DNA of 38,825 bases from a virus: IMG/VR virus record IMGVR_UViG_3300049846_000735, positions 1 to 38,825 of that record; one strand, written 5' to 3'. Both the position numbers and the translations under genes were made by a program. The notes beneath the pieces are model-generated. The model saw only the letters and a program-made list of their open reading frames with translations. It was not told the DNA's origin and searched no databases. This document shows, in pieces, positions 10,159 through 37,099 of the stretch (position 1 is the stretch's first letter; every line of letters starts with the position of its first letter).

Positions 10159-10539
10159 TTATTTTTTCGGATTTTTGCAATACTTTACACCATCAATTTC
10201 AATGCATCTTCCTGCCATCATCATTGATTTCATTCCAGATTCACAAGTGTAAACTAGACCAGAAGAACAGGCTTTGAAACCAATGTCACAAGCTTCACCA
10301 GCAAGTGGTGGAACAAATCCAGGCTTTGCTGGACACATTGGTGAAAAGTCACCACTGATCACAATGTGACCTTTTGCAACTGGAACAGGTGTGGCTGTTG
10401 CACTTGGTGTTGGTGTTTCAATCACACCTGGTGTTGGTGTGGTGACAACTGGATCAACCACTGGTGGTTTGACTTCATCTTTTTTTGAACAGGCCATGGT
10501 GAATGATAGTGCAATGCACATCAAGATCATTTTTTTCAT
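10159..10539 (-). CDS. Lipoprotein with Pro/Thr linker and Cys motif
   Basis: A 126-residue protein. A signal sequence (residues 1-16) ends in FTMAC with Cys17 as the lipid site; a Pro/Thr/Val-rich linker (about 24-58) follows, then a globular part with six Cys. The pattern KACSSGLVYTC is shared with the small lipoprotein at 8277-8498. AAAGGAAG lies before the chosen ATG at 10539; longer frames are unlikely. It stands alone on the minus strand with its own terminator, which is typical of a cargo gene. Phage lipoproteins of this kind often block infection by related phages, which is a guess here. Confidence 0.7.
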   Translation of the reverse strand: MKKMILMCIALSFTMACSKKDEVKPPVVDPVVTTPTPGVIETPTPSATATPVPVAKGHIVISGDFSPMCPAKPGFVPPLAGEACDIGFKACSSGLVYTCESGMKSMMMAGRCIEIDGVKYCKNPKK

Positions 10540-12982: not shown

Positions 12983-15706
12983 TTAGATATATCTATAAGG
13001 CTTGCCTTCATCTGGAAAGCCAATCAGGTCAACCACTTCCAAGTTTGTTGGAACAAAGCCAAGGCTTAGATCAACATTGATGGTGTTTCCAACAATAGAA
13101 TCCACCACACGTTCCACACTGTCCACTGAATAGTTGAAGTTGTGAACACGAACCACTGAACCAACAAAGAACTTTCCAACATCACCAGGTGCAACATCAA
13201 AAGAAGTGGTGGAATTTCCAACCACAATTGGCACCTGTGGATCAAGGAAGGCATGAAGAAGCTTCCAGGTTGCCTGAACATTTTGATCAGTCCCTTGGTC
13301 ATATAAAGGTGCTTCAATGATCATTCCAGAAGTTGGTGGAATTGAAAGTGGTGGATCAACTTCCATTTGATAGTCATCTGTGTCACTAAACTTCACCAAT
13401 GTGGTATTTTCAACAAAGGTCCAATCAAGGTTTCTGACCATGATGGTTTCACCAATGTAGTCACGCCACTTGTCTTTTTCTTTTCTTGGTGCAGTTGTTG
13501 AAAATGAATCAATCACTTTGATTCTGTTTGTTGTGGAACCAACACCAACAATTGTGCTTGGTGCAATGATTGAATATCTTCCATCAAGCGCAAAGTTTGT
13601 GGACAATAAATCCAAAGAAACACTGCCATCACGAATTGAAAGTGATTTGTTCTGAACTTCATAAAGCTTTGGTTCAAATTCACGGCTTCCACGACTAATG
13701 TCAGAAATCTGAAGATCAGGTGAACCAAAAACAACCACATCACCAACTTCAATTGCAAAACCAACTTTTCCAAATACCTTTACACCTGGAATCTTTTCAG
13801 CTGCAAACTGGTATCTTTCAAGCAGCCTTCTGCTGTTGATTCTTAGAAGTGTGTCTGTTTCACCATTGTCACGAAGTCCATCTGAATCAATGACCATTGG
13901 TTTGTTTCCAAAGTTCTTGATTCTATTTTGTGAATCAGCTGAATATCTTGTGTTACCTTTCAAGAACTTATCTTCAACAACATCTTTTTCATACCTGTAT
14001 ATTACAGCATTGTAGAAATTTTGATCTGCTGATCTTTCAGGCACAAGGCCACTTGGCTTCACAACATTTTCTTCATCTAAGAAGACAATGTTCTGATCTG
14101 CAATTGGTGGAACTGTGATTGAAATTGAAGACTTTGATTTTCTTGGCAATGAATAAAAACCACTTGGATAGTATATTTGCTGTGGCAAAAATTCTTCACC
14201 ATTGATGGTGTCTTTCAAATAAAACTTATAGTCAGCCAAATTTGAATTGAATCTTGTTTGCAAATCTTCATGTCTTGCAACATCCACATCTTCTGGTGTC
14301 ATTCCCAAACCATCAGACAAAACATTGTATTTGGATATGAATTCACACTGTGCTGGTGAATCAAGTTCATCATTGAAGTCATAGTCAACTTCAATCCATG
14401 AACCAAATTCATTCTTATCCATAGCAATAATTGGAAGCATGGAAACATCATTTCCTGATGTTGAATCTGTGATGTTGATGAAGTCACCAATAACAGGTCC
14501 ACGCTTTTCAGTTATGTCATAATAGTTGAAAAAGATCACACCACGTCTTGATTCTGTTTCTGAAATTTTATTGAACTGCTGAACAGATTCTGTGCACCAA
14601 ATTTGATCACCACCAGAAAGCATCAGCTTCAAAGCAAGATCAATGCACGAACCTTCAAGCTTATAGAATGAAGTCACATCTTCACCAAGATCATGAAGTT
14701 CTGCAACTGTGTCTAAAGAACCACGTGTGCATCCTGTGAAGCTTGTGCTTGTCATACCTGTAAACTGGATAACTTCATCACCAATTTGAATGAAGCTTTC
14801 AAGTGTTCCAGAATCAGATGGCAAGAAGAAACCTTCTGTTGATGTCACATTGATTGTTGAATCAAGTGCCATTGGAACAGTGGCTTGAAGAACCTGGACT
14901 GTTGCTGATTGTCCATCAAGAATTTTCAATGAAATTCTTGCCATTGCAGCTGCACTTTCTTCAAGTGCATTTCTTATCTGTGAAGCTTTTGAAACACCAC
15001 TTTCAATGGCCACACTGATTGCATCACCAACAACTGTAACAATTTCACTTCCAGCTGTGGCACCAGAAGTGTATGCAATTGAAACCGTTCCACTGTAGTC
15101 AGTTCTTTGTTGATATTGAATTGACTGAACAATGGCTGATTTATAGTGTGCCATTGAAGTCAGATTTGTTTTTGCCTGAACAAAAACCTTTTGTCTTTTC
15201 TGTCTTTCAGGTGAAGCAATTGTCAGCTTTACGCTTGCAGGAAGTGCTGCAACTTTGCTGATGATTCCCCTATGAAAAAGAATGGAATCTTCAGGGTGTG
15301 CACCACCTTTAAAATTAAGATAGCATTTGCACTTCACACCAATGATTTCATCCAGAACAATCCCTGGCGAAATAAGTCTGGTCAATTCCTGGTTTCTATC
15401 AATGATGTCCAGATCAAAAGTTGTGATTGATTGTGTGCTTCCCCTGTCAGGAATAAGCTGTTGAGTCAATTGGCTTGATGAAGAACCAAGTGAAATGTAG
15501 TCACGTGAATGTTCATCAACAATCATTCCACCATAGAACAAACCTTCCATTCCATAGAAAATTCCGTCTTCACCATATCTGCAAAATTTTTCAATATCCA
15601 ATGCACCATAAATTTCAGGCACACCATCAATTTCAAGTATGATGTTTGGTGTTAGGTTTCTTTGTGAAACAAGAAGTTCAGCTGTTGCTGAAAGATTAAC
15701 TGCCAT
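12983..15706 (-). CDS. Large tail-tip / baseplate hub-like protein
   Basis: A 907-residue protein. The N-terminal 180 residues are beta-rich and open with LTPNIILEIDGVPEIYGA, as seen in the first domain of many siphovirus tail proteins. The middle includes an IQIGDEVIQFTGMTSTSFTGCTRG segment (about 320-345), a motif found in tail-tip proteins. The C-terminal part is long and beta-rich. Size and place suggest the central tail-tip protein that contacts the cell. The ATG at 15706 overlaps the lipoprotein stop by 11 bases with GGTG upstream; a GTG nine bases earlier is an alternative. Confidence 0.6.
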   Translation of the reverse strand: MAVNLSATAELLVSQRNLTPNIILEIDGVPEIYGALDIEKFCRYGEDGIFYGMEGLFYGGMIVDEHSRDYISLGSSSSQLTQQLIPDRGSTQSITTFDLDIIDRNQELTRLISPGIVLDEIIGVKCKCYLNFKGGAHPEDSILFHRGIISKVAALPASVKLTIASPERQKRQKVFVQAKTNLTSMAHYKSAIVQSIQYQQRTDYSGTVSIAYTSGATAGSEIVTVVGDAISVAIESGVSKASQIRNALEESAAAMARISLKILDGQSATVQVLQATVPMALDSTINVTSTEGFFLPSDSGTLESFIQIGDEVIQFTGMTSTSFTGCTRGSLDTVAELHDLGEDVTSFYKLEGSCIDLALKLMLSGGDQIWCTESVQQFNKISETESRRGVIFFNYYDITEKRGPVIGDFINITDSTSGNDVSMLPIIAMDKNEFGSWIEVDYDFNDELDSPAQCEFISKYNVLSDGLGMTPEDVDVARHEDLQTRFNSNLADYKFYLKDTINGEEFLPQQIYYPSGFYSLPRKSKSSISITVPPIADQNIVFLDEENVVKPSGLVPERSADQNFYNAVIYRYEKDVVEDKFLKGNTRYSADSQNRIKNFGNKPMVIDSDGLRDNGETDTLLRINSRRLLERYQFAAEKIPGVKVFGKVGFAIEVGDVVVFGSPDLQISDISRGSREFEPKLYEVQNKSLSIRDGSVSLDLLSTNFALDGRYSIIAPSTIVGVGSTTNRIKVIDSFSTTAPRKEKDKWRDYIGETIMVRNLDWTFVENTTLVKFSDTDDYQMEVDPPLSIPPTSGMIIEAPLYDQGTDQNVQATWKLLHAFLDPQVPIVVGNSTTSFDVAPGDVGKFFVGSVVRVHNFNYSVDSVERVVDSIVGNTINVDLSLGFVPTNLEVVDLIGFPDEGKPYRYI

Positions 15707-16034
15707 TTGAATCACCAGGAAATGGTGGAAGTTCAGTGTCTTTAATTTCTTTCTGACAAGCTTTCAATTCTGCAAATTTGATTTTAACTTTGTTCACCCA
15801 TTCAGCAATTTTTGCTTCTGTTGCTGGTGACTGACAAAAATATCCATTCAAACCATCAAGTGAATTTTTAGTTTCACCTTCTGTCCAAATGAAATTTGCT
15901 GGATCAGTCAGCTTGAATTCAGTTGTCTTTTGTTCTTTGGTGTTTACATACCACTTTGTGATGAAAGGGAATGCTGGCATTTTACCACAACCAACACTAA
16001 GGCTTGCCAATAGTATTAAGAAAATTGTTCGCAT
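15696..16034 (-). CDS. Small lipoprotein, candidate outer spanin
   Basis: A 112-residue protein with a signal sequence (residues 1-15) ending in SLSVGC; Cys16 is the likely lipid site. Two further Cys lie at about 71 and 96. AGAAGGTGCAAG precedes the ATG at 16034. Its start lies inside the preceding gene (15997-16224), the overlapping arrangement typical of Rz/Rz1 spanin pairs, and its end overlaps the tail-tip gene. It is longer than most Rz1 proteins and not Pro-rich, so a spanin role is only plausible. Confidence 0.55.
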   Translation of the reverse strand: MRTIFLILLASLSVGCGKMPAFPFITKWYVNTKEQKTTEFKLTDPANFIWTEGETKNSLDGLNGYFCQSPATEAKIAEWVNKVKIKFAELKACQKEIKDTELPPFPGDSNGS

Positions 16035-19291: not shown

Positions 19292-20188
19292 CTAAACCCT
19301 TGAACCACCGAATGCATACCAGTGATAGAATTCATCAACGTCAAACCCTAAAGATGGACTTGCAGCAGTTGCAGTCCTATCAACTTTAAGCTGAAATCCA
19401 GTCAAATTTGAACCAGTTGGAATGTTTGTTGTGTGTGTTCCTAGACTTGTCCATGCTGAACCAGTCCAAAAAAAGAATTCAGCACTGGTGTTGCTTTTCA
19501 CCTTGCACCAAAGACAATACCAGGTGTTTGCACTAAGTGCTTGTGAAGTGTTGGTTGTGGTTCTTGTTCCACCTTGTGCTGTCACAAGTTGAAGGTTTGC
19601 ACCATTCACTGCACGGTTGTATGAAAAATAAATTCCATCAGTTGCGTGACCATTGCTGTCAAAAGCATTGTTGTCATTCAAACCCAATGTGACAACAAAA
19701 TCTTCTGTTGCAGTTGCAAGTGTTGGAACCCTAAAAATAACTTCAAAATTGTGTTCTGCTGAACCACCTGGTGCAATTGCTGTGCTTCTTAGCGAAATTG
19801 CAGAACGTGTTGATGCAGCTGTGGTTCTTAAAGCAATCACACCCACGTGTGATGAATCACCATTTGATGCAGATGCAGTTCCAACAGCTGTCCAACCAAG
19901 TTGTCCAGTTCCAGCAGGGCTGTCAAAGTCATCAAACTTCACACCACCATATCGAAAATCAGGTGTTCCAAATGGAATCCACCTTTTTCCAACAAACATA
20001 TATTCAATTTTATGATCAGTGTTCCACCATCTGGCAGCATCAGAAGCTGTGGCTGCTGCTGTTTCCATTTGTGCAGTTGTTCCATAACTTAAGTCAGTAG
20101 TGGCCACACCGATGTTTCCATCGGTGATAGCCTGTTGTAAATCTTTAGAAAGACTTGCTATGTAAACAAGATCAGCACGAACTTCCAT
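19292..20188 (-). CDS. Tail fibre-like protein with jelly-roll domain
   Basis: A 298-residue protein. The N-terminal YIASLSKDLQQAITDGNIG (about 9-27) matches the shared fibre motif of the 681-residue protein. Residues about 90-290 look like a laminin-G/concanavalin-like sandwich (NTWYCLWCKVKSNTSAEFFFWTG). It probably joins the tail through the shared motif. AGGGGAATAA precedes the ATG. Confidence 0.55.
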   Translation of the reverse strand: MEVRADLVYIASLSKDLQQAITDGNIGVATTDLSYGTTAQMETAAATASDAARWWNTDHKIEYMFVGKRWIPFGTPDFRYGGVKFDDFDSPAGTGQLGWTAVGTASASNGDSSHVGVIALRTTAASTRSAISLRSTAIAPGGSAEHNFEVIFRVPTLATATEDFVVTLGLNDNNAFDSNGHATDGIYFSYNRAVNGANLQLVTAQGGTRTTTNTSQALSANTWYCLWCKVKSNTSAEFFFWTGSAWTSLGTHTTNIPTGSNLTGFQLKVDRTATAASPSLGFDVDEFYHWYAFGGSRV

Positions 20189-27683: not shown

Positions 27684-28322
27684 CTACACCCTTCCCTTAA
27701 ACTTGGCCACAATTTCAAAGTCACCATACAACAACATTGCTGGTGTCAATTGGCCATATCGTTTCATCATTCTAGATATGATAGGCAATGCATTTGGATT
27801 TGCACGAAGAATCGACCTGACAACAGTTTCAACGCAATTCAGCTGATCATCCTTTTGTTCGTCCATGCAAATATCATAAGGCGTTCCTAACTTATCCTTT
27901 AAATATTGAAGCACATCTTGCCACTGTTCTTCACTTAAATTTTTTGGCTTCAGAAGAATGATTGCATCAGAATTGAAAACCTTCCAGAAAGGTGATTTCA
28001 CCAGTCCAGCTGAAATGGATTCATATATTTCCAAGTCTTTAGAATCTTTGATGTCACCTTCAATATTCATCCACGCATGGCACCATTTGATCCAATGGCC
28101 AGTCATTAGAAAGTGACCAAGCATGATCAAGAAAGAAGTGAAGTGTGTGGACTTATAAGAAAGACCAACACAATTTTGTGCCTTAAGTATTTCACAAGCT
28201 TCTTTGATCTGGTGTGGTTCAAGATCATATTCACGTCCAGTGAATAAATATTTCCAACCAGTCCAGTTCATTTGACCAACAATTCTAAGCATGAAAAATC
28301 TATATATTTTCATCATGGCCAT
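27684..28322 (-). CDS. Permuted papain-like (YiiX/NlpC-P60 type) protein
   Basis: A 212-residue protein. It has KWCHAWMNIEG with His82, a GTPYDICM segment (146-153) and NCVETVVRSIL with Cys163 and Glu165. A His followed far downstream by G.PYD and a C-x-E helix is the circularly permuted NlpC/P60 arrangement of YiiX/YebB-like proteins, which cleave peptide or amide bonds in cell walls or lipids. A virion-borne wall hydrolase is possible, but it sits among connector genes rather than tail-tip genes. The start is uncertain among ATGs at 28322, 28316 and 28313. Confidence 0.55.
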   Translation of the reverse strand: MAMMKIYRFFMLRIVGQMNWTGWKYLFTGREYDLEPHQIKEACEILKAQNCVGLSYKSTHFTSFLIMLGHFLMTGHWIKWCHAWMNIEGDIKDSKDLEIYESISAGLVKSPFWKVFNSDAIILLKPKNLSEEQWQDVLQYLKDKLGTPYDICMDEQKDDQLNCVETVVRSILRANPNALPIISRMMKRYGQLTPAMLLYGDFEIVAKFKGRV

Positions 28323-28858
28323 CCTAGAAAAAGCTTAAGTTCATTTATGATCCAATTCTTTCTTTCAGCTGAAAGCCAATGCCAAGGAAGTGTCATGTCA
28401 TCAGCTGGTGAATACATCAAAGAAAGACAAGCAAGTTCCAAATCACCACTGATCACCATGTTCATCAAGTCAACTGTGAATGTGTATGGCACACCAGGAA
28501 GTGTCACAGACAAAGCCCTGGTTCTTTCATGCACCCAAAGGCCACGTGGACCATTTATGCCTTCAGTGATGTTTTTCTTCTTCAGTCTATCAATCAGATC
28601 ATCAGCAAAAGCTTTCTTTTCTTTGATGGAAATATCCAAATATTTATATGATGGCAGCTGTGCCATGTAGTGAGTTTCCATCTTTACTTTGTTGGTTCTT
28701 TCATATTCAGCAAAAGCTGTTTCAGTGAAAGTTGTCCAACCAGCACCTTGATATTCAGGTGCTTCTTCAGAATCAATTTCAATTTTTTTCCAAATCCAAT
28801 AGTCAGGAATTTCTGCTGTATTGTTTGGATTTTGTGATTGAAATTTGACTGCAATCAT
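28313..28858 (-). CDS. Hypothetical head-tail region protein
   Basis: A 181-residue alpha/beta protein, rich in Trp and Tyr, not recognised. It overlaps the exported fibre-like gene before it by four bases and the papain-like gene after it by ten. The neighbourhood suggests a virion or connector component. Confidence 0.5.
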   Translation of the reverse strand: MIAVKFQSQNPNNTAEIPDYWIWKKIEIDSEEAPEYQGAGWTTFTETAFAEYERTNKVKMETHYMAQLPSYKYLDISIKEKKAFADDLIDRLKKKNITEGINGPRGLWVHERTRALSVTLPGVPYTFTVDLMNMVISGDLELACLSLMYSPADDMTLPWHWLSAERKNWIINELKLFLGWP

Positions 28859-30096
28859 TCATACACCACTGTGATGTTTGATGTTCCAGTTGTCACAATT
28901 GTCAGTCCAGTTGCAAAGGACAAATCAAAAGGCAAACAAACTGGTGCAGATCCATTTGGTGGTGTAATTAAACTGATGGTTGTTCCTGAACCTGCTGTAT
29001 TATCATAAAGCTGCGCTGACGAACCATTGGCTACAGTCCCATAGCAAACACGCTTTAAAACACCAGCACCAGACTTCACAGTTGTTGTTGTTGCTGTGGT
29101 GATGTTTGAAAAAGAACCCTTGTGAGTCACATACCATGGTGTTGTGTTGGCTGTGTTTCCAGGTTGAACAGTCCAAGTTCCACTTTGTGCTGCTGTGGTT
29201 ATATTGTTGGAAGCTGACAATTGATAAGAATTATTCAGTGTGTTTGCAGCAGAAGCAGTCAAAGTCACAACAGCAGTTCCACTAGTAGAAGCTGAAATCC
29301 TTGCACGAAAAGAAACTACAGCACCAGTTTCACACTTCCCTAAAATTGCATTTGTTGTTTGTGTGAAAGAAGCAGCATTTCCAGAACGTGGCAAACAAGT
29401 CATTGAAGACCAGTTGACACCATCATTAGTAGCTTCAAAGACAATAGTCTTCACAAATGTTCCGGTGATTTGAAAGCCAACCATTCCAGCACCATTTGTG
29501 TTCACAGTGACTGCATCATTCACATTCACCAAAGAACCACTTGAAGTTTTGTCTAGAAAAGTATTTGCACCAGACTGCAATTGCAATGAACTTGTGTTTG
29601 AAATTATTGAATCTAGCTTTGTGTTTGCAGCAGTTTGATTTGCAGCAGTGGATGCACCAGTTGTATTGGTAGCAATTGTTGAAAGACTAGAATTTGCAGT
29701 TGTCTGGTTTGCAGCTGTGGCAATACCTGTTGTGTTCGTGGCAATAGTGGAAAGTGTTGAATTGGTTGTTCCAATCAATGATTCCAAGCCATCAACATAT
29801 CCTTCAAGCTGATCTGTATATCCAAGCAATGATGTCCAATTTGAATTTGCTGTTGTCAGCAAACCTTCAACACCATCCACATATCCTTCCAACTGATCAA
29901 CAGCACCTAAAATGCTGACTTGATTTGCAGCTGTACTTGCACCACTTGGCAAACTGAATGACCATGGTGGTGAATTCTGACTGACTGCTTGAACAGCAGG
30001 AAAGTTTGAAACCTGAACCTGATTCAAATAAGCAGCGTGTGCAAGACTTGGACTTAATAGTGTGAAGAATAAAATCTTTTTTAGAAAATGTACCAT
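28855..30096 (-). CDS. Exported fibre-like protein with Sec signal peptide
   Basis: A 413-residue protein. Residues 1-21 form a clear signal peptide (basic start, FFTLL core, AHA before AYLNQ). The mature part begins with a VSNFPAVQAVS motif frequent in phage virion proteins, then carries Ser/Thr/Asn-rich repeats (three versions of ATAANQTTANSSLSTIATN and a doubled DQLEGYVDG), then an Ig- or jelly-roll-like domain (about 190-285) with ATNDGVNW. A virion-type protein with an export signal is unusual; it may act in the periplasm or on the cell surface. GAGGATGG precedes the ATG. Confidence 0.6.
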   Translation of the reverse strand: MVHFLKKILFFTLLSPSLAHAAYLNQVQVSNFPAVQAVSQNSPPWSFSLPSGASTAANQVSILGAVDQLEGYVDGVEGLLTTANSNWTSLLGYTDQLEGYVDGLESLIGTTNSTLSTIATNTTGIATAANQTTANSSLSTIATNTTGASTAANQTAANTKLDSIISNTSSLQLQSGANTFLDKTSSGSLVNVNDAVTVNTNGAGMVGFQITGTFVKTIVFEATNDGVNWSSMTCLPRSGNAASFTQTTNAILGKCETGAVVSFRARISASTSGTAVVTLTASAANTLNNSYQLSASNNITTAAQSGTWTVQPGNTANTTPWYVTHKGSFSNITTATTTTVKSGAGVLKRVCYGTVANGSSAQLYDNTAGSGTTISLITPPNGSAPVCLPFDLSFATGLTIVTTGTSNITVVYE

Positions 30097-30506
30097 GCGC
30101 CATCCTCTGGAACTAATTCCATTGCGTTTGTGTTTACAAGTTGAATATCTGTTTCACCATCAATAAGCTGGCCAGAAAAACCAACAACTGTCAAAACACC
30201 AGAATTGATGTTTTTAATTTTAATTGCTTTATTATATCCGGTTGCATCTGGAAGTGTGAACTGAATTGCACTTGCTGAATTTGCCAGTGCATAGTCTTCA
30301 ACAGTCAGAACTTGGTCTGCTGTATATGTGACAATATTTGGTGTTCCCAATTCACCAGAAAAAGGAATTCCACCATAAGTGGTTCCATTCCCAACAAACA
30401 TCATTTCCAGATCAGTATCAAAAATCAATTCACCAGCAAGCTGAATGAAAGAAATTCTTTGTGCTGTTGTTCCCCTTAAGCATTGAAACCTAGTGACTGG
30501 ACTCAT
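30081..30506 (-). CDS. Virion protein with fibre-type N terminus
   Basis: A 141-residue protein. GELIFDTDLEMMFVGNGTTYGG (residues about 25-46) matches a segment found near the N termini of many phage fibre and head-fibre proteins; the rest is beta-rich. It may be a head fibre or decoration protein, given its place after the capsid gene. AGGGGAAGCAAT precedes the ATG. Confidence 0.5.
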   Translation of the reverse strand: MSPVTRFQCLRGTTAQRISFIQLAGELIFDTDLEMMFVGNGTTYGGIPFSGELGTPNIVTYTADQVLTVEDYALANSASAIQFTLPDATGYNKAIKIKNINSGVLTVVGFSGQLIDGETDIQLVNTNAMELVPEDGAWYIF

Positions 30507-30697
30507 ATTGCTTCCCCTAGATCAATTTTTCTGATCTTTCCTGTTGATGGCATTTCACCACAATCAATCTTGTGAAACCAAGAAGAATCAAATTCTGAAG
30601 CAAGGCCACAATCAAATGTGGTGAATGGTCCAAATGATTTGTCTTCTGGTGTTACAAGATCAAAATTTCCAGTGAATGGATTGAATTCTATATTCAT
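30503..30697 (-). CDS. Hypothetical small protein
   Basis: A 64-residue protein starting MNIEFNPFTGNFDLV, a start common in phage fibre-associated small proteins, and rich in Phe, Asp and Gly. The ATG at 30697 is chosen because it makes an ATGA overlap with the gene before. It overlaps the next gene by four bases. Confidence 0.5.
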   Translation of the reverse strand: MNIEFNPFTGNFDLVTPEDKSFGPFTTFDCGLASEFDSSWFHKIDCGEMPSTGKIRKIDLGEAI

Positions 30698-30939
30698 GTG
30701 ATCACCCAACCAATCAGTGTTTCTTTTTGTGAATCAGAATAATTGAGTGTGACTGTTCTTAGTAAAACTGCATCTTTATAGAATGAATATGCAGTTGAAG
30801 TTGCACTTGGAAAGGTGACTGTTCCTTCATCATAGTCAGAAGGAATTGCACCAACTAAACTGACTGCAACAGCTGTGTCACCATCAATGTTCCTGAACTT
30901 TTCATGTTCACGTTGTTTGATTGAATCATTGAAAGGCAT
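30694..30939 (-). CDS. Hypothetical small protein
   Basis: An 81-residue protein with a short helical start and a beta-rich rest. AAAGGTGGAATAA precedes the ATG, a variant of the late-gene motif. Not recognised; probably a virion component by position. Confidence 0.5.
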   Translation of the reverse strand: MPFNDSIKQREHEKFRNIDGDTAVAVSLVGAIPSDYDEGTVTFPSATSTAYSFYKDAVLLRTVTLNYSDSQKETLIGWVIT

Positions 30940-31151: not shown

Positions 31152-31171
31152 CTTAATTATTTCTAATTAAG
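31152..31171 (-). other. Hairpin at the stop codon of the capsid gene
   Basis: CTTAATTA (31152-31159) and TAATTAAG (31164-31171) form a perfect 8-bp stem; on the minus-strand RNA the loop is GAAA, a stable GNRA tetraloop. It begins at the capsid stop codon. No U-run follows, so it may stabilise the capsid mRNA end or reduce readthrough rather than terminate. Confidence 0.5.
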
Positions 31172-32009
31172 CCATTTTTGCAATCAATGCCGACTTGCCT
31201 ACACCAGATGATAGTGTATCAGTCTGCATGACTTGTTTGCCCCAAAGCATATCAAGCACAGCAGTTTTTGAACCAACACCATAAAGTGGTGAATCAACTT
31301 CCCCATACTTAGCAACACGTTGAAAGCCTACTGCAATTGCAGACTTTTCATACATATATGCTTCACCTACTGGAACACCAGCGTGAACGATAACTGGAAC
31401 GCCGAAAACACGTCCAATTTCACCTGATGGCAAGTTTGGTGATCCATACTTGCTTGCATCAATGAAATTAGAAATCTTCAACATTGCCTTTTCGTTGTCT
31501 GGTCCAACAAGGAATGTCAGTGCATTCTTGTCAGCATGATTCTTGATAAGGTATTCACGCATATCAAGGATGATGTCTTCTGTGACAACTGTTGCAGCAC
31601 CCTGATCAAAGCCAGCATTTTCAAGCAAGCTGATGATCTGTGTGTCCACTTCATTTGCCAAACCAGTTGATGCACGTTTGATATACTCTGATTGAACTTC
31701 TACAGTTGACTGTAGTTCGTCCATAGAGTCGATCAACCATGCAACAGTTGAACGCTGGTCTAAAGCCAATGTGTCAACAGCTGCTGTCAGGTTCTGCAAT
31801 GAAGCAGCTGCACCTGATGCACGGTTTTCAACTGTGAATCCACCAAACTTTGGAAAGCTGATAGACTTGGCACCTTTTGCAGCACCAAATTGTGTTACAT
31901 CCATTACTGATCCAAGCAACTTAGCTTGGAAAGCAAGGTGTTTCTGAACTAGAGCAGAAACAATGGCAGCTTTTGATGCCAATAATTCTGTATTCCCTGT
32001 CACTCCCAT
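31167..32009 (-). CDS. Major capsid protein (HK97-fold-like)
   Basis: A 280-residue protein directly after the scaffold gene. It has a long N-terminal helix region, a central spine-helix segment (about 95-130), and a C-terminal beta part with GEIGRVFGVPVIVHAGVPV (about 197-215), the GxxxGxPVI pattern common in phage capsids. Its codon usage is less restricted than that of neighbours, with more CpG and C-ending codons, as for a highly expressed gene. The leader AGGGGAATTAAAATG equals that of the tail tube gene. Hairpins flank the gene on both sides. Confidence 0.82.
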   Translation of the reverse strand: MGVTGNTELLASKAAIVSALVQKHLAFQAKLLGSVMDVTQFGAAKGAKSISFPKFGGFTVENRASGAAASLQNLTAAVDTLALDQRSTVAWLIDSMDELQSTVEVQSEYIKRASTGLANEVDTQIISLLENAGFDQGAATVVTEDIILDMREYLIKNHADKNALTFLVGPDNEKAMLKISNFIDASKYGSPNLPSGEIGRVFGVPVIVHAGVPVGEAYMYEKSAIAVGFQRVAKYGEVDSPLYGVGSKTAVLDMLWGKQVMQTDTLSSGVGKSALIAKMA

Positions 32010-33452: not shown

Positions 33453-34027
33453 TCTTCAAATCCTGTTCTGAATGTTGGACCTGGTGAAAAGAATTTGATC
33501 AGTTTCACAAGGTCGTTTCTTTCCTTTAAATCTTTGAAAGTTATTTTTGAATTGTCACCAATTTTGTCTGCATACTTGTCACGCACTTCATCCAAATCAG
33601 CAGCTGTCAAACCAAGGAATGGACGCACTGGCAAATTCCCATTTGCACCAGTCATGTGGCCATGCGCTTTTGGTGCTTCTTCATTGTCTATTCCAATGAC
33701 AATTTTTGAACCTTCTTCACCAATCAAATCAATTGATGAAAGCATTGATCCAGTCAGCTTCATGTTGACCTTGTTTGGCTTTTTTCCAAATGCTTTGAAC
33801 TTCAGGCTTTCAGAATATTCTTTTGAATATGGTGCTGGCAGTTCAACCACTTGGCCACGACCATTCACGCCTTGGCCTTTTGCTGTTCTTGCTTGAATGA
33901 TTTCAATCAGATCATCAGCAATTGCAGACCTGATTCCCTTATCTGAAACATTGGTTCCAAATAGCTTTTTTAAGTCTATTTCCAAACCAACACTTTCAGT
34001 GGAATCAAGCCTTCTTTTCGGAATCAA
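33449..34027 (-). CDS. Phage virion morphogenesis (gpS-like) protein
   Basis: A 192-residue protein. It has ARTAKGQGVNGRGQ (about 46-60), KLTGSMLSSID (90-100), then AHGHMTGANGNLPVRPFLGLT (about 121-141), the order seen in Phage_tail_S/virion-morphogenesis proteins that complete the head-tail joint. It starts with TTG overlapping the portal stop (TTGA), AAGG upstream. Its place right after portal rather than after capsid is unusual for a tail-completion protein. Confidence 0.6.
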   Translation of the reverse strand: MIPKRRLDSTESVGLEIDLKKLFGTNVSDKGIRSAIADDLIEIIQARTAKGQGVNGRGQVVELPAPYSKEYSESLKFKAFGKKPNKVNMKLTGSMLSSIDLIGEEGSKIVIGIDNEEAPKAHGHMTGANGNLPVRPFLGLTAADLDEVRDKYADKIGDNSKITFKDLKERNDLVKLIKFFSPGPTFRTGFEE

Positions 34028-35538
34028 GCAGCACCTTTTTCCTTTGGTTGAAATGGTGGTTTTTGTCCTGGTTGTGCACCAGGCATTTGTCCCATGGCTT
34101 TCATATTGGCAATTTGTTTCTTAAGTGCATCAGCACCTTCAGCTTCAATCTTGCTTAACATTTCCTGTGCCTTTTCTTCATCAACTTCATAGATGTCCAT
34201 TACAGCTTGAAGCTTAGTCATCACACCCATGTCCAATTTCAATTGGATGTCAGCAAGCTTTTCAGATTGTGACTGAACCTGTTCAGGCTTTTCAAACTTC
34301 ACTTGGATTTCACAGTCGTCTGGAATCACAAAAGACAAAAACTTATCTTCAGTTGAATTCATCACCTGTGACCACTTTTTAAATAATTCAAAAAGCTTCT
34401 TTTCCACTTTCATAAACAAATCATAGTCCTGTTTTGTTGCTTCAAACTGATCAATCATGGCAAGAAGTCGATCAAGCCCTGAATTGTATTTTGAAGACAT
34501 CATCTTTCCATTCACCACATTTGGATCAAGTCCACGTGATGTCAGGAAGTGTGAAAGCAGCATTTCAATATAAGAAATTCCACCAGCAATGTCAGAATTT
34601 GGATTTGCAAAACCAAATTCAGCAGAACTGCCAGTCAATTCATCAGTTGGAAGATGAATGATTGATGTTGGTCCAATTTTTATGTTCTTTACTTGTGCAG
34701 CTTTTGGACCTTTCATCCACGCAACTGCATATCCTTGCATTTTGACGATGTTTCCAAGATCAGACAATGCACCAGAAAACTGGATTGCAAAATCAGTCAG
34801 TGCCTGTCCAGCACGAACGAAGAATTCAAAATCTTTGTCTGCACAAATATCAATGAATGGAAGTTCAGAAATTGGATTTGGCAACACTTCACCAACAAGA
34901 TCACCTTTTCCATTGAAGATCAGGTTTGATTGTTCGTCCCATGCAAGATTTCTTTCAAGTGTTGACCTGTAGTCATCCTTGTCAGCAATCTGATCATTGA
35001 TTCCATCTGAATTAAGTGGAACATCCATACTTCTGTCAAATGTGCTGATCACATATGCATTTGCCTTTTCTGGGTTTTCATCTTTTGGCACAACATCATA
35101 GTGATGAAGAAGAAGAACGCGAACATCCATCTTCCCTTCCTTTGGAACCACCATCAAACATGATTGTTTTTGGTTCTTATAGTAAAGATTGGCCTTGTAA
35201 AGTTTTTGGTTCACACACCATTCTTCATATTTCTGAAGAAGTTCAGCTTTCTGTTCATCAGAAATGACAGTGAAGTCACGTTCTGGTGCACACTTATATA
35301 TTGATGCTTCCTTTTCACAAACACGTTTTGAAATATTTATTGATGTCACCAAAGGCATGGAAGCAACTGTTTCAGCACTAAGCTGATCACTCATGTAGTC
35401 CTTCACATATTCTTTCATGTTATCGTTCAACACATCATAGTCACGAATTGATTGTGACTTTCTGATTCTGTTTTCATGAGTGTTTTTTTCTTTGATGAAC
35501 GCTTTTCTGTCCCCAATATTTTTCAAGTCTAATGCCAT
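34024..35538 (-). CDS. Portal protein
   Basis: A 504-residue protein right after TerL. The N-terminal part is alpha/beta; a clip/stem region lies around 240-340, with long helices after it (about 380-480) ending in a Pro/Gln/Lys-rich tail. Residues 430-480 (EKLADIQLKLDMGVMTKLQAVMDIYEVDEEKAQEMLSKI) resemble the C-terminal helices of SPP1-type (gp6) portals. It forms the 12-subunit DNA gate in the capsid. AAGGTAGGCATC precedes the ATG. Confidence 0.78.
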   Translation of the reverse strand: MALDLKNIGDRKAFIKEKNTHENRIRKSQSIRDYDVLNDNMKEYVKDYMSDQLSAETVASMPLVTSINISKRVCEKEASIYKCAPERDFTVISDEQKAELLQKYEEWCVNQKLYKANLYYKNQKQSCLMVVPKEGKMDVRVLLLHHYDVVPKDENPEKANAYVISTFDRSMDVPLNSDGINDQIADKDDYRSTLERNLAWDEQSNLIFNGKGDLVGEVLPNPISELPFIDICADKDFEFFVRAGQALTDFAIQFSGALSDLGNIVKMQGYAVAWMKGPKAAQVKNIKIGPTSIIHLPTDELTGSSAEFGFANPNSDIAGGISYIEMLLSHFLTSRGLDPNVVNGKMMSSKYNSGLDRLLAMIDQFEATKQDYDLFMKVEKKLFELFKKWSQVMNSTEDKFLSFVIPDDCEIQVKFEKPEQVQSQSEKLADIQLKLDMGVMTKLQAVMDIYEVDEEKAQEMLSKIEAEGADALKKQIANMKAMGQMPGAQPGQKPPFQPKEKGAA

Positions 35539-35543
35539 GATGC

Positions 35544-36929
35544 CTACCTTGGTGTTGTATAAACTTCTGAAGTTCTATTTTCACGGACCTGCTGAACCAC
35601 TCGATAACCAGCTGCTGTGGTGATATGTTGAAAATGTTTTGAATCATCTTCAATATAGTTTCCACCTTTTTTCAAAGCAGTCAGCCTTAGTCCTTCATCA
35701 AGTGTTTTGCATTTTTCATAAACTTGCAACCTAATTTGACCAGCTTCATTGAAGCAATATGCGTTCACCATGTTGTGGCGTTCACGAATTGGCGGATTGG
35801 CTTTTGGAACCTTAAATTCAAAACGAACCTTTCCAACTGGACTATTTGGTGGACGATAGTTTTCTAAAAACTTTTTTATGATTCCATAGTCAGACAAAAT
35901 TGATCTGGTGGAATTACTTCCACCACTTGCATCACCATGAATTTGATATAAAGCGTTGAAGTTGAACAACCCACGGCTGGCCAATTCTTCCATGATGTCT
36001 TCAGTCCTTGCACCCATGACAACAGCTTCTTCAAAGAAGTGGAAGACATCATTGTGTGGATCATACTGACTAAGAACGCATGACATCGGCTTACCTTCAC
36101 CAATGTTGAAGTCAAATGCAATACTGATTGGCCATCTAAGATTGATCTTGTAAACTTCTTTTTTGAAATTCCTGTCACGCTTGTAACAGCTATAGATCAC
36201 TTCTTCATCCACTTCAATCCATTCACCATAGATGTATCGACGTGCATTTTTTGGATCAAGGTCCTTCTTCAGCTGTTCAATATAAATTGGATCAAGGAAT
36301 GGATTGTCAGTTGTGACAGAATAAAAAACTTTCCTGGTTGGTGAATCAGATTCCATCCAATACTTGTGCACCCAATGTGATGGTGCACCAGGATTTGTTG
36401 CAGCAATCAGGAAATTTTCTTTCACTGTTGGAATACGACGAAGCCTTGCTTTCAAAGCCATGAATGCTGCCCTGTCTTTGTCATCATTTTCAGACAATTC
36501 TTCAAACACCAAACCACTAAGCTTAAGTGATTTTCCTTTTTCATATCTTTTGTCAGCCCAGGAAATGGAAATGATTTCACTTCCGGTCTTTAAGAATTTT
36601 ATTGTGGCTGTGGTGTTGTTGACTTCATAGTCTTCACCATCAACCAGGTCTTCTTTGATATGTTCAAGAACTTCATTGAAAATAGTTCTTCTTAAATCAG
36701 GCATTGACCTTCTTGCCAAACACACACGTGCAGCATTGTTCATAAGACAATGGGTGACAGCAATGTGTGCCATCAATATGGATTTTGCTGATCCATAGGA
36801 ACCACTAAGAAGAATTTCTGGTGTTCCAATTGCAAAATCAAAGTCACGTCTTAAATAGCAAATGACCTTTCCCTGATAAGGAATGGCAAATGGATTGAAG
36901 TCCAAAAGGTTTGGCTTTGATGTCTTCAC
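35544..36929 (-). CDS. terL: Terminase large subunit
   Basis: A 461-residue packaging motor. The ATPase has Walker A SGSYGSAKS (42-50), Walker B SGLVFEEL (138-145) and a coupling TNP (178-180). The nuclease has Asp273 (IAFDFN) and Asp333 (HGDASG). It fits the Terminase_6/PBSX type. The GTG at 36929 is chosen: it overlaps the previous TGA (GTGA) and has AGGAA at good distance; a TTG 18 bases upstream is less likely. It cuts and pumps DNA through the portal encoded next. Confidence 0.88.
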   Translation of the reverse strand: MKTSKPNLLDFNPFAIPYQGKVICYLRRDFDFAIGTPEILLSGSYGSAKSILMAHIAVTHCLMNNAARVCLARRSMPDLRRTIFNEVLEHIKEDLVDGEDYEVNNTTATIKFLKTGSEIISISWADKRYEKGKSLKLSGLVFEELSENDDKDRAAFMALKARLRRIPTVKENFLIAATNPGAPSHWVHKYWMESDSPTRKVFYSVTTDNPFLDPIYIEQLKKDLDPKNARRYIYGEWIEVDEEVIYSCYKRDRNFKKEVYKINLRWPISIAFDFNIGEGKPMSCVLSQYDPHNDVFHFFEEAVVMGARTEDIMEELASRGLFNFNALYQIHGDASGGSNSTRSILSDYGIIKKFLENYRPPNSPVGKVRFEFKVPKANPPIRERHNMVNAYCFNEAGQIRLQVYEKCKTLDEGLRLTALKKGGNYIEDDSKHFQHITTAAGYRVVQQVRENRTSEVYTTPR

Positions 36930-37099
36930 CAACCATAGTTCCTGCAAGTGTTTTTGATCACTGCTTTTGCCACTGATGGATGATACATTTTCATCAATTC
37001 AACTTCTGTTTTCTTAATTCCCATGGTCTTGATCATTCCAAGAATTGTCATTCTTTCTTGAACTGTGAATGGTGCTATGAATACATTTTCAGGAATCAT
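36926..37099 (-). CDS. Hypothetical 57-residue protein between terminase subunits
   Basis: A 57-residue protein with QERMTILGMIKTMGIKKTEVELMKMYHPSVAKAVIKNT, a helix-turn-helix-like layout. The ATG at 37099 follows AAGGTGAAGAAC. It overlaps TerS by 11 bases and TerL by four. Perhaps a packaging accessory; function unknown. Confidence 0.55.
   Translation of the reverse strand: MIPENVFIAPFTVQERMTILGMIKTMGIKKTEVELMKMYHPSVAKAVIKNTCRNYGW

Follow-up and report, generated by a model that had tools for sequence, protein, structure and literature searches.

Structural genes of tailed phages are generally assumed to work in the cytoplasm, so what is a gene with an apparent secretory signal doing among the head genes of one, and where would its product act? 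This question is raised by a locus in the viral DNA IMGVR_UViG_3300049846_000735, the whole IMG/VR virus record, with a length of 38,825 bases (the window). The target gene occupies positions 28855 to 30096 on the minus strand, begins with ATG and encodes 413 amino acids, laid out from N to C terminus as a signal, a repeat stalk and two beta-sandwich domains, here called A and B; the product is predicted to be exported. A first-pass annotation made from the sequence had placed the gene in the late operon, and this is borne out by its minus-strand neighbors: terminase (35544-36947), portal (34024-35538), a neck-type gene, a scaffold gene, the major capsid protein (31167-32009) and small open reading frames (ORFs) come before it, and tail-type genes follow. 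Our reading, to which we assign a probability of roughly 0.6, is that the target is an exported, disulfide-stapled, adhesin-like protein whose site of action is the envelope of the infected cell, the host probably being Gram-negative. Export from the cytoplasm, as predicted from the sequence, is by itself very likely.

The start codon is well fixed, because a Shine-Dalgarno-like AGAGGA (30103..30108 in plus-strand numbering, read on the minus strand) lies 6 bases 5' of the ATG, the gene overlaps both the upstream gene (by 16 bases) and the downstream gene (by 4 bases, ATGA), and the second in-frame methionine occurs only far downstream, within the domain region. The N terminus has the form of a Sec/signal peptidase I signal, MVHFLKKILFFTLLSPSLAHA followed by AYLNQ, in which residues 1-21 (30034..30096, minus strand) comprise a charged n-region (MVHFLKK), a hydrophobic core (ILFFTLLSPSL) and an A-X-A cut site (AHA), with the predicted cut after AHA. 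The residue at +1 is alanine, and the cysteine of a lipobox is absent from that position. Signals were scored with our own heuristic, checked on a few known exported and cytosolic proteins of E. coli. The target scored 7.2, a value reached by 21 of 20,000 random N-termini of window composition, and the clean signal peptide ending in AHA that the first-pass annotation had described is thereby upheld. Scores of at least 7 were found in about 2% of 1,283 other genes in related loci, many of which adjoin signal-bearing relatives. An ordinary virion fiber assembled in the cytoplasm would carry no signal peptide, and the target does.

Whether relatives keep the signal had been proposed as a check, and both of the closest relatives, L090 and L091, do so. 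Their N termini read MFFRILFGLLFFTSTAFA followed by AYINEV and MVKLIFCLLFSLSANA followed by AFINQV, respectively; the start position and the form of the signal are conserved while its letters have diverged, and the mature starts correspond to AYLNQV in the target. We rejected a chance signal or a wrong start codon as hardly credible, given the good ribosome site and gene overlaps, the start and signal shared with L090 and L091, and a chance score of about 0.1%; no point was found in its favor. A different objection is that the protein stays inside, its hydrophobic N terminus serving as a membrane anchor that is not cut or being buried in the virion. Export is a prediction, and the N terminus is hydrophobic enough that 2.4% of shuffles of it score as high, but the A-X-A cleavage motif is retained across diverged relatives (in a first set of 23 signal-bearing proteins, described below, alanine stands at -1 in 21 and at -3 in 19), and the cysteine pattern is tied to the signal, making this objection very improbable.

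The cysteine pattern emerged from a compartment test, in which relatives of the C-terminal domain (domain B; residues 322-413, 28858..29133, minus strand), 112 distinct proteins in all, were compared with and without a signal, counting cysteines after the cut site. The first set held 23 signal-bearing and 41 signal-less distinct proteins after frames had been read for ambiguous starts, and a second scan, run with a different pattern, added 48 distinct proteins (13 with and 35 without a signal after correction). A cysteine pair at the positions of C351 and C387 in domain B was present in 19 of 36 proteins with a signal and in 0 of 76 without one, the counts being 11/23 versus 0/41 in the first set and 8/13 versus 0/35 in the second scan with corrected labels. 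Parity behaved similarly. All 23 signal-bearing proteins of the first set had an even number of cysteines (20 with at least two, three with zero), whereas the 41 signal-less proteins divided into 18 odd, 6 even and 17 with zero; restricted to cysteine-containing proteins of this set, 0 odd and 20 even stand against 18 odd and 6 even (p = 1.6e-7). In the second set, the parity difference under a fixed automated rule had a p of 0.011. When the cysteines were masked, the best tree required 13 changes of the signal label, and with supported branches alone the minimum is 6. Independent pairs placed an even cysteine set on the signal-bearing side in 5.1 of 6 cases, and the opposite association hardly ever occurred. 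The simplest reading of these sequences is that the versions with a signal fold in a disulfide-forming compartment. Together with the signals of L090 and L091, the restriction of the pair to signal-bearing proteins lends support to the proposal of the first-pass annotation that the protein may be surface-displayed or released by the infected cell.

Some labels in this test were set by reading: L093, L095, L098 and L174 were assigned a signal and L203 none, its signal call having been rejected as lying inside a repeat. L174, which has the pair and was first called signal-less, has a start with AAGGA five bases upstream, giving the signal MFFKTLFLLLTMSSKAFA. The pair in L180 was counted by eye, its alignment having slid. 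Several considerations weigh against our interpretation. The signal labels rest on our own heuristic caller, several of them fixed by reading, and the cysteine test is not fully blind, because L098 and L174 were re-read on account of holding the pair. Two signal-bearing proteins, L180 and L237, have an odd cysteine total, with one extra cysteine, and both keep the pair; about half of the signal-bearing relatives are without the C351/C387 pair. Finally, a tree-corrected sign test on supported branches only gives a median p of 0.06, which is not much lower because it draws on just six independent pairs.

The mature part of the target begins with the stalk (residues ~60-165; 29602..29919, minus strand), where the repeats anticipated by the first-pass annotation are present as two LEGYVDG(V/L)E(G/S)L and two STIATNTTG..TAANQT units. 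Its expectation of fiber-type domains stands in part: there are two beta-sandwiches, one of them with the XepA/YomS fold described below, but the target protein had no significant match in Pfam or PHROGs. Whole-protein scans with the target returned only stalk-level relatives or weak partial matches, and a stalk resembling that of the target occurs in L001-L003 without a signal. Neither the target nor its neighbors matched the PADLOC anti-phage defense models.

Domain A (residues ~176-283; 29248..29571, minus strand), which contains C234 and C255, was modeled with a mean predicted local distance difference test (pLDDT) score of 85.5 and matches the beta-sandwich of the XepA C-terminal domain and YomS. 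The model superposes on the XepA C-terminal domain with a Z of 15.1 and a root-mean-square deviation of 2.0 over 105 residues, against a Z of 9.4 for the next other fold, and on YomS with a Z of 14.0; Foldseek, also run on this model, gave a XepA-type fold match as well. The link to XepA is at the level of fold, since XepA and YomS were absent from the matches of a profile of 35 domain-A sequences to PDB sequences. Domain B, an eight-stranded beta-sandwich (pLDDT 91.5), shows a similarity of Z 6-8 to pentameric nucleoplasmin-like rings and to several phage sandwiches, which is not diagnostic; its weak likeness to a pentameric metagenomic phage capsid protein (PDB 4dmi, Z 6.2) is indistinguishable from that of a common sandwich. 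A joint alignment of the two domains was dropped, pieces of domain A having been misplaced on domain B. We also observed stand-alone domain A proteins of ~108 amino acids, without a signal, in many viral contigs (L010-L089).

The fold of domain A invites comparison with XepA of the Bacillus subtilis prophage PBSX (PDB 6i56), which appears after induction, is exported past the membrane and is absent from mature particles (PMC6834076). XepA is a dumbbell pentamer of two discs joined by a 30-residue linker, and the ~38-residue linker between the two sandwiches of the target recalls this arrangement (PMC6834076). Both are late phage proteins with two beta-sandwich domains, and full-length XepA is cytotoxic on Bacillus plates (PMC6834076), so the target might likewise be a lysis helper, an exported oligomer that binds or destabilizes membranes or the wall and speeds release. 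We consider this somewhat unlikely. XepA belongs to a phage of a Gram-positive host and is encoded in a lysis cassette, whereas the target gene has head and tail genes as its neighbors, and the head-gene location recurs in L090, L091 and L168. XepA has no repeat stalk, no Sec signal has been described for it (it has no transmembrane region and was treated as soluble), and its toxicity was seen with the full-length protein only, the N-terminal disc being needed (PMC6834076); domain B is not clearly that disc. YomS of SP-beta (PDB 6i5o) is a single-domain version of the domain A fold with 112 residues, lacking a stalk and a second domain; its gene adjoins tail genes, away from lysis genes, and it showed no toxicity (PMC6834076). 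We would therefore class the target as an exported late phage protein carrying a XepA-like domain and not as a true XepA family member, because it has the fold but not the lysis-cassette location.

The same comparison bears on the description of the target as a virion-type protein, a point on which the evidence is divided. The nearest solved fold, XepA, is reported to be missing from particles (PMC6834076), but the fold family includes the turret base of HFTV1, which sits on capsid hexamers and for which XepA is the sole probable homolog (PMC12494034). A XepA/YomS-type fold thus serves both in and off virions. Both target domains match the turret entry (PDB 8qpg) with a Z of ~7; that protein is a capsid part of an archaeal virus, and the match reflects a common arrangement. 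The target could accordingly be a virion part that takes a detour, maturing outside the inner membrane and joining capsids or tails when the cell bursts. Besides the turret base, the collagen-like and Mtd_N proteins encoded with it, which are virion-adhesin types, favor this, as does L008, a single-domain relative without a signal that adjoins a capsid gene. The absence of XepA from particles speaks against it, and to our knowledge there is no tailed-phage precedent for such a route, which we also counted against it; we judge it unlikely.

Under the reading we prefer, that of an exported adhesin-like protein, the target would be a late tailed-phage protein made alongside the head proteins via overlapping translation. 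It would pass through Sec, be cut after the AHA that ends at residue 21, and fold after leaving the cytoplasm, the probable site being the periplasm of a Gram-negative host, where two disulfides, assigned by position as C234-C255 and C351-C387, would form. Because domain A has the XepA/YomS fold, the product is probably a ring-like oligomer, and it would act at the envelope of the infected cell. The role we favor is that it binds or coats an envelope or surface component, which would block attachment of further phage and keep progeny from sticking to debris. That the protein masks a surface or receptor is a tentative guess by functional analogy with Llp of T5, a periplasmic superinfection-exclusion lipoprotein that blocks the receptor FhuA (PMC9586334). 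Like the target, Llp is a phage protein sent to the periplasm; it differs in being small, lipid-anchored and a FhuA binder, and the target has no cysteine at +1. Decoy and wall binder, the roles offered in the first-pass annotation, are candidates only. A decoy copying fibers of the phage that bear the same domain was considered and is unsupported: profiles of domains A and B matched no other protein in the window, so there is no sign of a copy of the phage's own receptor-binding tip.

In L090 and L091 the gene forms part of a cassette with the order collagen-like/FNPFTG protein, Mtd_N protein, signal protein and 181-amino-acid protein, the L091 contig ending within the last of these genes. 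In L090 the cassette is flanked by portal and protease, and in L091 it lies downstream of the genes for capsid and portal; the head modules of both have capsid families other than that of the window, indicating that the cassette moves as a module. In the window, the upstream gene (30081..30506, minus strand; 141 amino acids) encodes an Mtd_N domain (Pfam PF18454, E 5e-6) and is 57% identical in L090 and 48% in L091. Preceding it is a small gene with an FNPFTG motif (30503..30709, minus strand; 68 amino acids) that matches the C-terminal part of the collagen-like protein, longer in L090 and L091, and resembles a C-terminal remnant of it. Downstream of the target are genes for the 181-amino-acid protein (28313..28858, minus strand), 49-50% identical in L090 and L091, and for a 212-amino-acid protein (27684..28322, minus strand) conserved along with the signal protein in L090 (52% identity); scans with these two genes found L090 and L091 alone. 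The 212-amino-acid protein has a weak similarity to permuted papain-like proteins of the YaeF/YiiX type (Peptidase_C92; E 0.027 in the window and 5.7e-4 in L090, both below Pfam's cut-off), with candidate H and NCVE residues.

Farther from the cassette, three features of the window were recorded. A short ORF at 15696-16034 (minus strand), after a small membrane-type ORF, has a lipoprotein-type signal (LASLSVGC) and could be an outer-membrane spanin or another lipoprotein. An ORF at 10159-10539 (minus strand), on the strand opposite to the surrounding early genes, has a lipoprotein-type start, MKKMILMCIALSFTMAC, and a proline/threonine-rich stretch. In the tail region, 19292-20188 encodes an SO2946-like C-terminal domain (Pfam PF22237, E 6e-18).

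Beyond L090 and L091, the neighborhoods of several signal-bearing relatives contain portal, terminase, head-tail adaptor or capsid genes. One, L168, is found among portal and head genes in the Gram-negative Asticcacaulis biprosthecium. Genome searches for named hosts gave few matches, L168 with a signal and three loci (L165-L167) without; searches of hosts within the same family or class added few more, including L172 and L173. Several of the signal-bearing relatives are accompanied by further genes with a signal, in some cases in rows. In L007 (MW202554.1, 4410-9910), four consecutive signal-bearing late genes directly follow the portal, including a Laminin_G_3 lectin and a pectate-lyase/tailspike-like protein, and in L180 (865-3282) three signal-bearing genes stand in tandem. 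A literature search, which left most subscription journals outside it, turned up no description of signal-bearing fiber-like proteins in head modules.

We regard it as a serious possibility, slightly short of probable, that tailed phages repeatedly move one turret/fiber beta-sandwich family between the cytoplasm and Sec, that moves to export bring disulfide staples, and that head modules house the exported forms, at times in runs of two to four signal-bearing fiber, lectin or tailspike-like genes. If true, environmental phages would have an exported arm of infection that is widespread and has so far gone undescribed. The cysteine pair offers a cheap test for exported relatives, having exposed two missed signal peptides (L098 and L174). 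If a head-module gene is built for the periplasm and its family has changed compartment repeatedly, with cysteines to match, then a "structural" annotation can be wrong, and the exports of phages go beyond lysis proteins, receptor blockers and membrane proteins.
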